Below, piece by piece: positions 1 through 30,927 of a stretch of DNA of 33,334 nt (position 1 is the stretch's first letter; each line of letters starts with the position of its first letter). Both the position numbers and the translations under genes were made by a program. Origin of the DNA: an uncultured Bacteroidota bacterium. GTDB taxonomy: Bacteria; Bacteroidota; Bacteroidia; B-17B0; Aurantibacillaceae. The notes below the pieces were generated by a model, which worked only from the letters and a program-made list of their open reading frames with translations, searched no databases and was not told where the DNA came from. The stretch spans positions 1 to 33,334 of the forward strand of contig CAITNS010000004.1 in NCBI GenBank assembly GCA_903893815.1, read 5' to 3'.

Positions 1-1
1 T

Positions 2-1099
2 GTTTGTTTAGGTCAATCAACAACGTTATCAGGAGCAGGCGCATCAACCTATACTTGGTCAGGAGGAATAACTAACGGTACAGCTTTTACGCCAACAGTA
101 AATGCAACTTATACAGTAACAGGTACAGATGTTAATGGATGTAGTAGTGCAGGAGTTCAATCTATTATAGTTAATAATCTTCCTGCTGCAAATATTAATA
201 CATCAGGTCCAACTACATTCTGTCAAGGAGGTTCAGTAATTTTAACAGCAGATGCAAGTAATAGTTATTTATGGAGTAACGGAGCAACAACTCAAAGCAT
301 CAGCACATCACAGTCTGGAAATTATACTGTGCAAGTGAGCGATATTAATGGATGCTCATCTTCATCTAGTGTAACTTCAGTTAACGTTAATCCAACTTTG
401 GTTGCTAATATTACAGCAGCAGGGGCAACAACATTTTGCCAGGGTGGTTCAGTGCTTTTAACGGCTAATAGTGCTAATAGTTATTTATGGAGTAATGGCG
501 CTATTACACAAACAATAAATGTTACACAAGCAGGCAATTATTCAGTACAACTTACTTCGGGAGCTGGCTGTTCGGGTAGTTCTAGCATAACAACCATTGT
601 TGTAAATCCATTACCAAATGTTACTTTAGGTTCAATTCAGAGTCCGTTATGTGTGAACAATGCTACAGTTCCATTATCGGGTAATCCGGCAGGAGGAATT
701 TATAGTGGAATAGGCGTTAGTGGAAGTAGTTTTGATCCAGCGGTTTCAGGTGCAGGTACATTTACAATTAATTATACTTATACCAATGTTAATATGTGTT
801 CGGCAATTGCTAATCAAACAGTCAATGTAAATTTATGCACTGGCATTTTAGAGTTAAATAATGAGACGGTATCTGTTTATCCAAATCCAACAAGTACTAT
901 CATTAATGTGAAAATGAACACAACATTAATTAACAATGCAACGCTTGAGTTATATGATGCTACTGGCAAATTAATTACGCAACAAAAAGTAGTTAATGAG
1001 TATAGCTCACTTAACTTAAATGGATTGGCCAATGGTATTTACTCAGTGCGCATAATTACAGATAATAAACAAACTATTAAACGAATAGTTAAACAATAA
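2..1099 (+). CDS. T9SS-sorted Ig-like repeat surface protein, 3' part
   Basis: The gene is cut by the left window edge. The frame is open from base 2, giving 365 residues to the TAA at 1097-1099; the GTG at 329 is internal, not the start. Visible are about four Ig/PKD-like modules of 65-75 residues. Two are close copies of each other, with TTFCQGGSV, NSYLWSNGA and GNYxVQ blocks and a closing GC pair. The last roughly 75 residues form a type A T9SS sorting domain: VYPNPTS, then NGIYSVRI and a basic IKRIVKQ end. In this family the tail directs export across the outer membrane and is then usually cleaved. The protein is therefore most likely a secreted or cell-surface adhesin-like protein. Ligand and full size are unknown because the N-terminus is missing. 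Sorting domain call is firm; function is inference. Confidence 0.85.
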   Translation, partial: VCLGQSTTLSGAGASTYTWSGGITNGTAFTPTVNATYTVTGTDVNGCSSAGVQSIIVNNLPAANINTSGPTTFCQGGSVILTADASNSYLWSNGATTQSISTSQSGNYTVQVSDINGCSSSSSVTSVNVNPTLVANITAAGATTFCQGGSVLLTANSANSYLWSNGAITQTINVTQAGNYSVQLTSGAGCSGSSSITTIVVNPLPNVTLGSIQSPLCVNNATVPLSGNPAGGIYSGIGVSGSSFDPAVSGAGTFTINYTYTNVNMCSAIANQTVNVNLCTGILELNNETVSVYPNPTSTIINVKMNTTLINNATLELYDATGKLITQQKVVNEYSSLNLNGLANGIYSVRIITDNKQTIKRIVKQ

Positions 1100-1426
1100 T
1101 AAATCAACAAACATCCTATGTTGATTTATCAACGTGGAGCGGCAATGGAATTTATTTTCTACAAATTTTTGATTTACAAAATAATATCATCGAAAACAGA
1201 AAAATTGTACTGCAATAACTTTAATACAAGGTGGGATTTTCCCACCTTGTTTAAAATTTAAAAATTATTATTCGTTAACTACAGGGTTACAGATAAAAAT
1301 ATAGAAGATTATGAAATGTCCTATTTCTTCGAAATGAGAAAGTGTGGCTATAATGTAGTTTAAATATTTTCTTTTTATTATGCTTATAGCAGCGTTATAA
1401 AAATGTAAGTTGTTGTAAATTAAAGT
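1100..1426. other. Gene-free interval between two T9SS cargo genes
   Basis: About 330 AT-rich bases between the stop of the Ig-like protein and the orphan sorting-domain tail. It holds one clear hairpin terminator (1226-1250). No other coding frame, tRNA or riboswitch-like fold was seen. Confidence 0.6.
1226..1250 (+). terminator. Hairpin terminator after the Ig-like protein gene
   Basis: Perfect 11-bp inverted repeat, acaaggtggga / tcccaccttgt, with a 3-base loop (ttt, 1237-1239), followed by a weak T/A run. It lies 127 bases after the stop of the upstream gene. It could stop transcription in either direction. Confidence 0.65.
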
Positions 1427-1543
1427 TTACTGCAATACAACTTTCCTTATATCAAACGTATTTCCTTGTGCATTTATTGTATCAATAAAATAGACTCCGT
1501 TTCCGTTATAAGTTTTGCGGCTACTATAAAATACTTGCTCCAG
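1427..1543 (-). pseudogene. Orphan T9SS sorting-domain tail (remnant)
   Basis: On the minus strand this stretch reads as 38 residues, starting LEQVFYSSRKTYNGNG, continuing VYFIDTINAQGNTFDIRK and ending VVLQ and a TAA at 1427-1429. The NG-x-YFI ... RKVVLQ pattern is the typical end of a type A T9SS sorting domain. It has no start codon and is closed upstream by an in-frame TAA (1544-1546). It begins five bases past the stop of the SBBP-repeat gene, in a different frame. It is best read as the leftover C-terminus of an older version of that gene, or of a lost neighbour, after recombination replaced the upstream part. A chance match is possible but unlikely given the density of matching positions. 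Confidence 0.6.
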
Positions 1544-1548
1544 TTATT

Positions 1549-3690
1549 TTACTCTTTGATAAACTTTGCAATCTTCAATAAATTACCATTCTCATTAAAT
1601 AGCTGTAAAAAATAAATACCACTGCTTAACTCTGCGATAGAAACCGTATTGTTGTATTTACTTTCCTGAACTATTTGCCCAATGCTATTTACTATTTTAA
1701 CATCCGTAAATTTAATGGGTGAACTAATTGTTAGTTCTGCTGAAGCAGGATTTGGATAAATTTTTATAGAATTATTTTTTAATTCGTTTAAAGAAGTACA
1801 CACACTAACACTCTGTGTATAACTTGAATTTGAATTACATAAACCGTTTGAAACAGATATTGTATAAATGGTTGTGACACTAGGTGTTACAATAATTGAA
1901 GATGAAGATGAACCATTTGACCATGAATAAGTTGATGCACTTGAATTAGCAGTTATTGTTGCTGTTTCGCCAACACAAATTAATGTATTAGTTGAACTTA
2001 TATTTAATGTTGGTAACGAATTAACTGTTACAGAAGTTGTGGCAGTTGCATTTGAGCAACCATTTGCATACGTTACAATTACAGAATAATTACCTGCTAC
2101 ATTAGTTGTAATTTGTTGAGTTGTTGAACCATTAGACCAAAGGTAGGATGAACCACTACTTGAAGTTAAGGTAATGTTACTGTTTTGGCAAAAAGTTGTT
2201 GGTCCATTTATGCTGATAGATGGAACGGGTAATGATCCAATTTTTTGAATATAAATATCTTTCAATCCGTTAGAAATTAAATTTGTTATTCCTACTCCTG
2301 GATCAAAATCCGCAGTGTTAGAAAAAAATCCGGCAGAATAAACATTGCCGCTATTATCAGCTAAAATAGCCAATCCCCTATCTTCGCCAACGCCACCATA
2401 GGATTTGGCCCCAACAAAATTACCATTTCCATCCAATTCCCATAGAAATATATCATTAGATGTTCCTGCGGTAGAAGTCAAATTATATATTGAATTTCCA
2501 GGATCAAAATCTGAAATACCTGCATAAAATCCGGTTGTATAAGAGTTTCCTAAATTATCAATAGCAATTGATAATCCTTCATCATTACCAGATCCTCCCG
2601 ATTTTTTAGCCCAAACAAAATTACCGTTAGCATCCAATTTATTTATATAAATATCTGTACCGCCAAGTGGGGTTAAATTGAAAGTACTAGCACTAGGGTC
2701 AAAATCAAGAGTATATAAGAAAGTGCCCGTAATGTAAACATTACCTAAATTATCGATAGCCATACCATTAACAATATCTTGCTGGTTTCCTCCAATTGAT
2801 GCAACCCAAGTAAGCAACCCTGTTGTACTTAATTTAGCAATAAAAACATCTTGCGTTCCACCATTAGAAGTAACGCTTTGAACTCCTGCACCAGGATCAA
2901 AGTCAACAGTTTGACTATAGTGTCCTGTAATGTATATATTGCCGCTACCATCTATAGAAATAGATTTTGCTTCATCAGAAGATGCGCCTCCAATGCTTCT
3001 ATACCAAGTCGTCCCTCCAATAAGACCAGTATTAGTACTAATTTTAACGACAAAAATATCTTTTCCTCCAAATGCAGAAGTTAAAATAGCAGTTGTAACT
3101 CCTGGATCAAAATCTGCTGTACCGCTAAAATAACCTGTAAGGTAAAAATATCCATTATTATCTAATGCTATAGAATTTGCTACATCATCACCAGTACCCC
3201 CGTAATGCTTTGCCCAAATAGTAACACCATTATTATCTAACTTCCAAACAAAGCAATCAGACCCAGACCCAGTCCCTGCTATGCTTGCATAATTAGGCAA
3301 AACAATTGATGCCCCTAAAGTGATATTATTTGAGCTATAAGAACCTGCTACATACAAAGAACCACTATTATCGACGACTATTTTTTTTATTGATATAGAC
3401 GACGATCCTGATGTTTCTTTCTTAGCCCAAACAAAATTACCGTTTGAATCAAATTTGCATACAAAAATACTAGATGGTATGCCTGAGCTTGTCATAGTGT
3501 AGGTTGCAACACCTGGATCAAAATCAATAGTGCCACGAAAACTACCCGATATAAAAAAATTACCATTGTTATCAACTGCAATCGAATTTGCTTGATCATC
3601 ATAAATCCCACCTAGTCCTTTTGTAATAAAACATTGTGAATAGCTCCAATTAACTATTACTAAAAATAATAAAATAATAAAATGTTTCAT
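1549..3690 (-). CDS. SBBP/beta-propeller repeat protein with T9SS sorting domain
   Basis: 713 residues. A signal peptide (MKHFIILLFLVIVNWSYSQ) is followed by about seven repeats of roughly 60 residues up to about residue 480. Each repeat follows the pattern GG-x-DD-x-SIA-x-DN-x-GN-x-Y-x-TG, and six keep a DFDPG/S block. This is the SBBP repeat; seven copies fit one seven-bladed propeller. Two Ig-like modules follow, the first with TTFCQ and SYLWSNG blocks nearly identical to those of the convergent gene at 2-1099. The protein ends in a type A T9SS sorting domain (IYPNPASAELTI ... SSGIYFLQL ... IAKFIKE). It is probably exported through the T9SS and surface-bound or released; the ligand is unknown. 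Its start lies 3 bases after the stop of the nuclease-like gene upstream, so the two are probably co-transcribed. Confidence 0.87.
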   Translation of the reverse strand: MKHFIILLFLVIVNWSYSQCFITKGLGGIYDDQANSIAVDNNGNFFISGSFRGTIDFDPGVATYTMTSSGIPSSIFVCKFDSNGNFVWAKKETSGSSSISIKKIVVDNSGSLYVAGSYSSNNITLGASIVLPNYASIAGTGSGSDCFVWKLDNNGVTIWAKHYGGTGDDVANSIALDNNGYFYLTGYFSGTADFDPGVTTAILTSAFGGKDIFVVKISTNTGLIGGTTWYRSIGGASSDEAKSISIDGSGNIYITGHYSQTVDFDPGAGVQSVTSNGGTQDVFIAKLSTTGLLTWVASIGGNQQDIVNGMAIDNLGNVYITGTFLYTLDFDPSASTFNLTPLGGTDIYINKLDANGNFVWAKKSGGSGNDEGLSIAIDNLGNSYTTGFYAGISDFDPGNSIYNLTSTAGTSNDIFLWELDGNGNFVGAKSYGGVGEDRGLAILADNSGNVYSAGFFSNTADFDPGVGITNLISNGLKDIYIQKIGSLPVPSISINGPTTFCQNSNITLTSSSGSSYLWSNGSTTQQITTNVAGNYSVIVTYANGCSNATATTSVTVNSLPTLNISSTNTLICVGETATITANSSASTYSWSNGSSSSSIIVTPSVTTIYTISVSNGLCNSNSSYTQSVSVCTSLNELKNNSIKIYPNPASAELTISSPIKFTDVKIVNSIGQIVQESKYNNTVSIAELSSGIYFLQLFNENGNLLKIAKFIKE

Positions 3691-3693
3691 AGC

Positions 3694-4119
3694 TTATATT
3701 TTATTCCACTTATTTTCAAAATCAATAATATCAGATAAAACTAAATTATCAACACCATTTTTAATTTCTTGCCATTTGTTCATGTTATTCCTTTTCATCT
3801 GAATTTTAGCAACTTCTTTATGAGTTAAAATAAAAAATCTTGAAACAAGTAATTTATCTATGATAACAAAAATCCATATATCAGGATGAGGAACATCCGG
3901 AGTCTTATACTTTTGAAAAAAGCCAGTTACTATTCTGTTTTTATTGGTGGTTTTAATTTCAATGGTAATTGCTTTATTTTCTTCTTTTAACACAATAATG
4001 TCAACAGCTTTTTTATTGCCTAAAGTCAAATTAAATTGTATATTTCGTTTAGCAAGTTCTGAGCATACAGCATATTCTCCCGCTAAGTTGAGATTATATT
4101 TTTCTTCTTGGTTTTTCAT
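3694..4119 (-). CDS. Small PD-(D/E)XK nuclease-like protein
   Basis: 141 residues, no signal peptide or membrane segment, so cytoplasmic. An N-terminal helix with Glu15 (GEYAVCSELAKR) is followed by strand-forming stretches carrying Asp40 (KAVDIIV) and Glu54-Ile-Lys56 (ITIEIKTT). This E ... D ... ExK spacing is the core of the PD-(D/E)XK nuclease fold. The C-terminal half (WIFVIIDKLLVSRFFILTHK) could complete the sheet. The family as a whole includes restriction enzymes, resolvases and repair nucleases; the substrate here cannot be told. It is the first gene of a two-gene unit with the secreted SBBP-repeat protein, 3 bases apart, an odd pairing of a cytoplasmic nuclease fold with an exported protein. 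The fold assignment is inferred from motif spacing only. Confidence 0.6.
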   Translation of the reverse strand: MKNQEEKYNLNLAGEYAVCSELAKRNIQFNLTLGNKKAVDIIVLKEENKAITIEIKTTNKNRIVTGFFQKYKTPDVPHPDIWIFVIIDKLLVSRFFILTHKEVAKIQMKRNNMNKWQEIKNGVDNLVLSDIIDFENKWNKI

Positions 4120-4329: not shown

Positions 4330-4372
4330 CATTTTAAAAAAATAAATTACCTTAGAAGTAGTTTATTTGTGT

Positions 4373-5647
4373 ATGCAAAAAATATCTAACGAGCGTTTTG
4401 ATCATTTATATTTACGTGAATTATCTTCACGTTTACAAAAGCATTTATTAATTGAAGTAAAAGAATTTAATGATTGTAAACTTGCCTCCGAAAAACTTTT
4501 AAAGAGCGGCTTTGTAATATCGGCGCACACCTTAGCTCGATTTTTTGGGATTTTAAAAAGTAACCACAGACCATACACTTCTACTCTTAATTTAATGTGT
4601 GAGTTTATTGGGACAGATTCATATACTGCTTTTTGTACTGAGGTGAAACAAAAAACAGAACACGCTTTATATGGCCCAATAGATGCTTTTAAAACTGGAC
4701 CTTTTTCATTAATTACTCTTGAAATTGCTTTAGCTAATGAGGATTGGAAAAGTGTTCAAGAAATAGTGAGCAATTTTAAGATTGATGATCCTTTTAAAAA
4801 TGACCTCGTTATGCTGCTTGGTAAAAGCGTGCGATATAGCCAGAAAAGGGAACTATTATTAAAAAAATTAATAGAGATTGAACATGGTAGACATTTATTT
4901 TATGAAAGTTATGTGGATGAAGATGACCCAGGAGGATATTATTCGCATGCGTTAAAAAAATACTATCAATCTAGTTTCTCAAATTCTGATAGTCAACTTT
5001 TTCTTCACTGTTTTTTATTATCTAAATCAATTTATTTAAACGAGACCTTTGATTTAACTTTATTAAAATCATCCATTTTTAATGTAGATTTATCATTTAA
5101 AGAATTACATTTTCATGAAATTTCGCGGTATTTAGAATTGCAAATTTTGCTCGATTTTAAAAAAGGCTTTTTAAAAAACAATTTACTTAACCATTTAGAA
5201 CAAGTTACAGAACTAACTGCAGGATATGTATATAATGATAAGTGCACGCAGGAATTACTCAATCATGATAGATGCTGGATTGTTGCCCGTAGTTTAAAAG
5301 CTTTATCATTTTCAGGGTTTTTAAAAGACGCATTAAAACATGACGGTTTTAGGATACTAATTGAAGAACTTTATAGAGGTTCTTCCAAAAATATAGGAAG
5401 TATTGCTGAATTAATTATTCAATTTGTAGTGCATGGTATGAACAAGTCGCCAGGTAAAGGAAATGATTTCTTTCCGCCAAAACGAATAACTGCCTTACAC
5501 GATAATGAAACAAATTCAAGAATTGTTATTGAAGCAGCCACCTCATTAATTTATGCCGAAGAAAAAATAAAAACTATCCTTGAAAAAAATGTGTATTCAT
5601 TTGCTAAAAAAACAGGTCACACCTGGTTGTTTGAATTGCTAGAATAA
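4373..5647 (+). CDS. Putative HTH-domain protein, otherwise uncharacterised
   Basis: 424 residues from ATG 4373; a TTG two codons earlier (4367) is a weaker start. The first 90 residues (LSSRLQKHLLIE ... DCKLASEKLL ... SAHTLARFFGILKS) resemble an N-terminal helical DNA-binding module common in Bacteroidota, with an S-x-TL-x-R-x-FG signature. The rest is rich in Leu, Lys and Phe helices with no catalytic motif I recognise and could form a TPR-like solenoid. No signal peptide or membrane segment is visible. It stands alone on the plus strand between two minus-strand units, and its stop codon directly abuts the stop of the DUF1801 gene. A regulator role is inference; the C-terminal function is unknown. 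Confidence 0.6.
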   Translation: MQKISNERFDHLYLRELSSRLQKHLLIEVKEFNDCKLASEKLLKSGFVISAHTLARFFGILKSNHRPYTSTLNLMCEFIGTDSYTAFCTEVKQKTEHALYGPIDAFKTGPFSLITLEIALANEDWKSVQEIVSNFKIDDPFKNDLVMLLGKSVRYSQKRELLLKKLIEIEHGRHLFYESYVDEDDPGGYYSHALKKYYQSSFSNSDSQLFLHCFLLSKSIYLNETFDLTLLKSSIFNVDLSFKELHFHEISRYLELQILLDFKKGFLKNNLLNHLEQVTELTAGYVYNDKCTQELLNHDRCWIVARSLKALSFSGFLKDALKHDGFRILIEELYRGSSKNIGSIAELIIQFVVHGMNKSPGKGNDFFPPKRITALHDNETNSRIVIEAATSLIYAEEKIKTILEKNVYSFAKKTGHTWLFELLE

Positions 5648-30549: not shown

Positions 30550-30927
30550 CTAATAAGGAAAGATGTGGATGTATATAATCCTTGAAAGCTTATAGTTTTT
30601 TATTGAAAACACAGAGAGAACAAACAATATTGCTAACACCACTAAAATTGTAGGAATGTTTGGTAAAAAAACATACAATGTCAAAAACGTTAAAATTGCC
30701 TGAAAAACTGCCAAACCATAACTAATGTACATCGCCCCAATAAAATAACCTGGCTCTCTATCAAAATGATATTGACAGTTTTCACAATTATCTTTCATAA
30801 CTGGTAATTGTAACAATTTAGTCTTTTTTTGATACACGTCTCCATTTCCACAATTCGGACATTTTTCTTTCATGATTCTCATAAATAAATTGCCTTTAAT
30901 CAATTGTTTTTTACTAACTGCATTCAT
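30550..30927 (-). CDS. DUF983 zinc-ribbon membrane protein
   Basis: 125 residues. CPNCG (22-26 region) and CENC form a zinc ribbon, followed by FDREPGYFIGAMYISYGLA and two membrane helices, typical of DUF983. Function in the family is unknown; it is common in Bacteroidota and alpha-proteobacteria. Single gene, divergent from the AraC regulator. A -7 element in the minus orientation is at 30947-30954. Confidence 0.85.
   Translation of the reverse strand: MNAVSKKQLIKGNLFMRIMKEKCPNCGNGDVYQKKTKLLQLPVMKDNCENCQYHFDREPGYFIGAMYISYGLAVFQAILTFLTLYVFLPNIPTILVVLAILFVLSVFSIKNYKLSRIIYIHIFPY

Follow-up and report, generated by a model that had tools for sequence, protein, structure and literature searches.

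The 449 bp between two convergent cargo genes, A and B, near the start of the window (the whole stretch of 33,334 nucleotides analysed here, from an uncultured Bacteroidota bacterium) contain the 3' ends of three former genes, which are probably fossils of earlier occupants of the locus, left behind as other genes replaced them. Comparison with related species suggests, as far as sequence goes, that cargo genes were overwritten by others bringing their own export signal. T9SS cargo genes are numerous, with at least about 150 sorting domains in this genome among the matches listed, and the tails give the direction of change: as a fragment of 13 or 39 codons cannot be ancestral to a whole gene, the turnover of genes can be ordered in time.

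Gene ends in the gap between A and B

Genes A and B both end in a T9SS sorting domain (Por_Secre_tail, PF18962 / TIGR04183) and are predicted to be exported. Gene A (2..1099, plus strand), which is cut by the contig start, encodes Ig-like repeats and an A-type sorting domain ending in KRIVKQ (PF18962, 54.6 bits with a cut-off of 27). Gene B (3690..1549, minus strand, stop at 1551-1549) encodes SBBP repeats (86.1 bits) and a complete sorting domain (PF18962, 43.9 bits with the same cut-off); it lies behind an open reading frame for 141 aa on the same strand (3694..4119), for which a Pfam search gave nothing above cut-off and which falls within the stretch missing from the congener G014. A 426-aa gene with its upstream edge (4335..5647, plus strand) has an orthologue in G014:C35 and serves as the anchor for comparison of the two genomes. 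In the gap itself, tail A (1099..1218, plus strand) comprises the last 39 codons and the stop of an IVLQ-type cargo gene in a frame other than that of A. It is followed on the same strand by a hairpin (1220..1255, -19.6 kcal/mol, z -5.5) and by what is left of a DUF481-like gene (1263..1304), 13 final codons with their stop, reading NYYSLTTGLQIKI. On the minus strand, tail B (1427..1543), again from an IVLQ-type cargo gene, has 38 final codons and a stop in a frame different from that of B. For each of the three tails there are whole genes elsewhere whose ends match it.

The preliminary description had noted a 38-codon sorting-domain end, out of frame, behind the SBBP gene, and this feature is real. 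It begins 5 bases past the stop of B on the same strand (codons 1543..1430, stop 1429-1427) and reads LEQVFYSSRKTYNGNGVYFIDTINAQGNTFDIRKVVLQ. Scored against 12 related sorting domains combined in a profile, it reaches 49.0 bits (E 3.4e-14) and tail A 78.4 bits, compared with a top score of 11.6 bits in 20 triplet-shuffled windows; the next frames of the window are B itself (14.8 bits) and A itself (11.0 bits). Tail B belongs, as does tail A, to one sorting-domain subtype, here labelled IVLQ from its last residues. Both tails match the last 37-39 of the approximately 78-80 residues of the IVLQ alignment and are therefore not complete domains; neither is found among the matches listed for PF18962 and TIGR04183 (150 each, from 208 and 185 candidates scored, respectively). 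The search with the tail for its gene of origin, as had been proposed, recovered related cargo ends in the same genome, namely those of the whole cargo proteins on C58 and C60 (54% identity), and no clear source gene, the best matches in this genome and elsewhere being 54-57% identical. Among 19 other species of the genus no orthologue of gene B was found, the best long match having 45% identity. Tail A is 59-62% identical to the C58 and C60 genes and matches the end of an RCC1-repeat cargo gene of the congener G015 (G015:C22) at 79% in protein and 81.5% in DNA over 119 bp. Differences by codon position (7/3/13 between tail A and the G015 gene, 9/5/16 between tail B and the C60 gene, 9/4/15 between two whole genes) follow a coding-like pattern, by which the tails look recently orphaned.

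At gene A the junction can be placed closely. Gene A has 82.8% DNA identity to a partial gene of G014:C53 over window positions 1-1103; both genes sit at contig ends and the comparison covers the known ~1.1 kb up to the stop. From 1100 onwards identity to this relative drops from 7-9 to 4-5 per 10 bases and that to the IVLQ gene climbs from 3 to 8-9, so that the junction marks the end of homology to the new gene and the start of homology to the old one. The two parents have almost the same, AT-rich sequence here (about ATAAATC). Four A-type relatives (on C55, on G004:C6 and two genes of G014:C53) end in KQQ and a stop; in the window the end of A reads CAA TAA TAA ATC, with a second in-frame stop after that of A; one possible reading is that the last Q codon has mutated and that the native stop comes after it. 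The terminator that lies behind the C55, G004:C6 and G014 genes was sought behind A and not found. Two places in the window fit a looser pattern with up to 3 mismatches, one at 1210, where it overlaps the end of tail A, and one at 30918, and we regard both as chance. As a search of the window for the native terminator of A yielded no more than these two loose matches, insertion of the whole gap between an intact A and an intact B is unlikely. The gene from which tail A derives may have had its terminator in the hairpin at 1220-1255; a scan with a simple terminator pattern listed nothing at these positions.

The third remnant is identified by gene order. The 426-aa gene, which is present in 2 of 20 genomes of the genus (its own included), is 77% identical in protein to its G014 orthologue and 81.8% identical in DNA over 4335-5635. 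Directly upstream of this orthologue, on the same strand, G014:C35 has a whole 275-aa frame that ends in YYYSLTTGIQIKI and that Pfam relates to DUF481 at 20.0 bits, just under the cut-off of 21.1. The remnant at 1263..1304 matches G014:C35 over 41 bp at 87.8% (E 1e-7, or 5.6e-11 with the gap alone as query), and homology between the window and G014 resumes at 4335. An earlier occupant is thus seen at the same locus in a relative, and since the fragment cannot be the ancestor of the whole DUF481-like gene the window represents the derived state. As this tail does not come from a cargo gene, shared sorting-domain sequence could not have guided the event that left it. No whole gene corresponding to tail A or tail B was found at this locus among the genus genomes compared.

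Probable replacement of genes and exchange of sorting domains in congeners

An earlier occupant is also seen at a second locus, in which the partners are those of the A junction with their roles reversed. The contig C55 of the same genome and G015:C22 have 2.1 kb upstream in common (1958 bp at 74% and 164 bp at 77%), after which C55 continues with a 1223-aa A-type cargo gene and G015 with an RCC1-IVLQ cargo gene. In G015:C22, 19 bp past the stop of the latter gene, there follow approximately 7 last A-type codons and an A-type terminator (92 bp at 85%, E 2.6e-25).

Different sorting domains are further found on similar cargo bodies. Genes with a LamG body carry an IVLQ domain in four cases (C58 and C60 of the same genome and two in G015), a KFVKE type in G004:C8, an A-type sorting domain with an A-type terminator in G004:C6, and in G014:C4 a hybrid, whose last 23 codons are in-frame IVLQ from GIYF on; one LamG body thus occurs with at least three kinds of sorting domain. 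The G004:C6 and G014:C4 genes have a common Ig-like module (323 bp, 95% identical in DNA) whose end falls at the YPNP codons; past these they differ, G004:C6 going on as A-type. Taken together, the congener cases and this variety give good support to exchange, and indicate that sorting domains as well as whole cargo genes have been exchanged in nature.

It had been proposed that recombination swapped the C-terminal part of a cargo gene and left the old tail behind, as evidence of exchange of sorting domains or modules. Recombination at cargo genes that leaves an old tail agrees with both congener comparisons, i.e. C55 with G015:C22 and the window with G014:C35. A swap confined to the C-terminal part fits less well, given that A is 83% identical in DNA to its G014 relative over the whole known 1.1 kb, so that the incoming piece was probably most or all of the gene. 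In place of a single old tail there are three leftover tails, one of which is not from a cargo gene. The idea of sorting-domain or module exchange draws support from the different domains on one LamG body, but the junctions of the window itself could be deletions.

Probable replacement of former occupants and its alternatives

If the tails were left by successive replacements, the ancestor would have had a DUF481-like gene beside the 426-aa gene, as in G014. An IVLQ-type cargo gene with its terminator would have arrived on the plus strand and overwritten the DUF481-like gene down to its last 13 codons, and an A-type cargo gene would later have done the same to this IVLQ gene, sparing its last 39 codons. 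A further IVLQ-type cargo gene would have arrived on the minus strand, and B would have overwritten all of it but the last 38 codons. We infer this order of events, and that B took the same route as A; the right-hand join was probably made by short-homology or illegitimate recombination, in the case of A at the A-type stop. Each incoming gene would retain its own complete sorting domain and stop, and is hence predicted to remain exportable, with the old tail reduced to untranslated DNA. At A and at the RCC1 gene of G015:C22 the sequence past the new stop would run into the terminator of the resident, and such reuse could explain why breakpoints lie between the new stop and the old terminator. 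A wider picture, which we offer tentatively, is that in this lineage cargo loci undergo serial overwriting and that the right breakpoints are limited to the interval from the incoming stop to the terminator of the resident, such that a layered record of gene ends accumulates; together with the breakpoints at YPNP and GIYF, the sorting domain and its stop might then constitute a travelling module by which many surface proteins enter the T9SS.

The same arrangement might alternatively have arisen if A and B had each once preceded an IVLQ-type gene on its own strand and deletions had removed the DNA from their stops to the last 38-39 codons of these tandem neighbours, with no swap in the window, a course of events that is possible, though we consider it doubtful. 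That deletion can produce such tails is seen in G010:C14, in which the 3.7 kb of sequence shared with G014 (88%) comprise a gene X and the neighbour upstream of it; this homology stops 23 nt past the stop of X, and a 192-codon, 5'-truncated LamG frame follows. Likewise, an internal deletion on C16 of the same genome left 14 out-of-frame last codons, and in the window two deletions need fewer breakpoints than two replacements. Against this, the deletions must have occurred twice side by side, each with both breakpoints near gene ends, and the states of C55 and G015:C22 can be derived by one replacement but require an insertion and a deletion under this model. It is on account of this case, of the DUF481-like end and of the missing terminator of A that replacement of former occupants is favoured for the window; at the junction of B, for which there is no sister locus for comparison, deletion of a tandem neighbour could still apply.

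Three other explanations appear far less probable. Tandem duplication of gene ends, perhaps retained as silent donors for gene conversion, has precedents in G132:C19, where three copies of the last ~47 codons of a LamG gene lie behind that gene, in a partial copy of a gene's own end at L195 and in the in-frame IVLQ end of G014:C4 from GIYF on. The tails of the window, however, differ in type from the genes that they follow, and a comparison of 1090-1560 with the remainder of the window and with loci of the same genome (~0.5 Mb including the window) shows no recurring 22-base sequence, which makes such an origin very improbable here. Joining of unrelated contigs at similar sequence during metagenome assembly might be suspected from the start of the contig inside the repetitive gene A and from several contigs of other genomes that end in such tails; yet a search for a long repeat of the gap elsewhere in the genome found none, and the DUF481-like end sits where the gene order of G014 predicts, so that an artefact is likewise very improbable. 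Both tails are open and show coding-like codon-position differences from their relatives, as might be expected of spare sorting domains expressed by frameshift or read-through. Recent orphaning, however, yields the same codon pattern, the tails amount to only about half a sorting domain, complete ones are already present at the ends of A and B, and the stop of A is followed by a second in-frame stop; expression of this kind is thus the least credible possibility. Replacement of former occupants accordingly continues to be the reading that we prefer.

The arrangement has partial parallels in known systems. In silent-copy arrays such as pilS/pilE, partial 3' copies without a start lie beside an expressed gene. 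The tails of the window are likewise startless 3' parts, but they are single and, for both A and B, of another type than the adjoining expressed gene, which the copies match in such arrays; G132:C19 is nearer to a silent-copy array than the window. Mobile elements that integrate at the 3' ends of genes leave the displaced old end behind a complete one, as in the window, but there the displaced end repeats the restored gene, which the tails do not.

Among T9SS cargo genes, one report describes recombination at the hagA-kgp locus of P. gingivalis between genes with shared, nearly identical 3' ends, for which homologous recombination was proposed, as well as remnants of cargo genes between hagA and kgp in strain HG66 (PMC9328147). 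In contrast to this locus, as described there, the partners in the window are of different types and small ends lie just past a stop. Sorting domains are reported in a second study to be exchangeable in the laboratory between cargoes within a species, an exchange between P. gingivalis and T. forsythia having failed (PMC11285876). Natural exchange in congeners fits this laboratory exchangeability, the present case differing in that exchange is deduced from natural genomes. In titles and the beginnings of abstracts, with most subscription journals outside reach, nothing was found on remnants of tails or on sorting domains that pass in nature from one cargo gene to a different one, and little on how T9SS cargo genes diversify.

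Occurrence of orphan ends and related gene fragments

Tails of this kind are rare in the genome itself. From 151 sorting-domain places compiled among the matches listed, 150 reached a stop (one was dropped), and up to 600 bp behind each of these 150 ends was scanned. Under a general profile built from sorting-domain ends of the same genome, tail A alone stood out (18.9 bits), tail B scoring 8.8 bits with noise at 8.6. The IVLQ profile gave 75.7 bits for tail A, 49.0 for tail B and 16.5 for the next match, which lies behind C81, antisense and inside another frame (controls: shuffled at most 6.0 bits, reversed at most 7.9). BLAST with the 150 ends returned five frames at E <=0.05, namely A, B, one on C16 (5.8e-6) and two weak ones (0.018 and 0.034), and none in controls. 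Within these 150, a convincing tail a short way past a complete sorting domain is limited to A and B.

At E 1e-5, 4 of 87 genomes from the order have matches to the IVLQ subtype, as do 33 of the 395 sampled from the class (the present one included). The subtype has 50 matches in the class sample, of which nine lie in frames of at most 53 aa: two in the window, three in the G132:C19 array, three at contig ends and one with internal stops. Outside the genome 145 distinct cargo 3' ends, 77 of them best matched by the IVLQ profile, were scanned for same-strand tails of at least 16 bits within 400 bp, and three had one (L211, with a tail of another type, and L161 and L195, with tails of their own type), in a scan that is blind to the remnants in L062 and L067; controls gave none in shuffled sequence and three on the reverse strand, two of which are a facing gene pair in L170 and the third lies at the edge of L255.

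In L211, from another genome, the end of a different domain type lies close behind an IVLQ stop. Two orphan tails (1213-1335 and 3238-3396) flank one IVLQ cargo gene there, and both resemble the domain of the frame at 3-590. In the G132:C19 array (L161:3368-6450) the three orphan copies behind the LamG cargo gene are spaced at 502, 502 and 906 bp and have a sharp left edge in common; between copies two and three lie two frames that by appearance are a candidate toxin-antitoxin pair. Rfam had no match in L161 or in the window. Genes for ParE-like toxins (PF05016) lie near IVLQ cargo ends in two genomes, at L016:740-1021 (C60 of the same genome, 51.3 bits) and L162:291-629 (31.3 bits).

The LamG genes of L015, L016, L065 and L066 have conserved 5' and 3' blocks, partly with their flanks, at different sites in two genomes, with a LamG middle that is not alignable as DNA, suggesting from sequence a dispersed, mosaic gene family. 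On C16 a 151-aa frame (L081, minus strand, 320-840) matches the N-terminal part of the 1005-aa cargo gene of C48 at 38-54% and then runs out of frame into the C48-type last codons. Finally, frames of 73 codons on C47 (L013:2744-2962) and 84 codons on C15 (L014:2101-2352) contain little beyond a sorting domain and are perhaps relics of whole domains.
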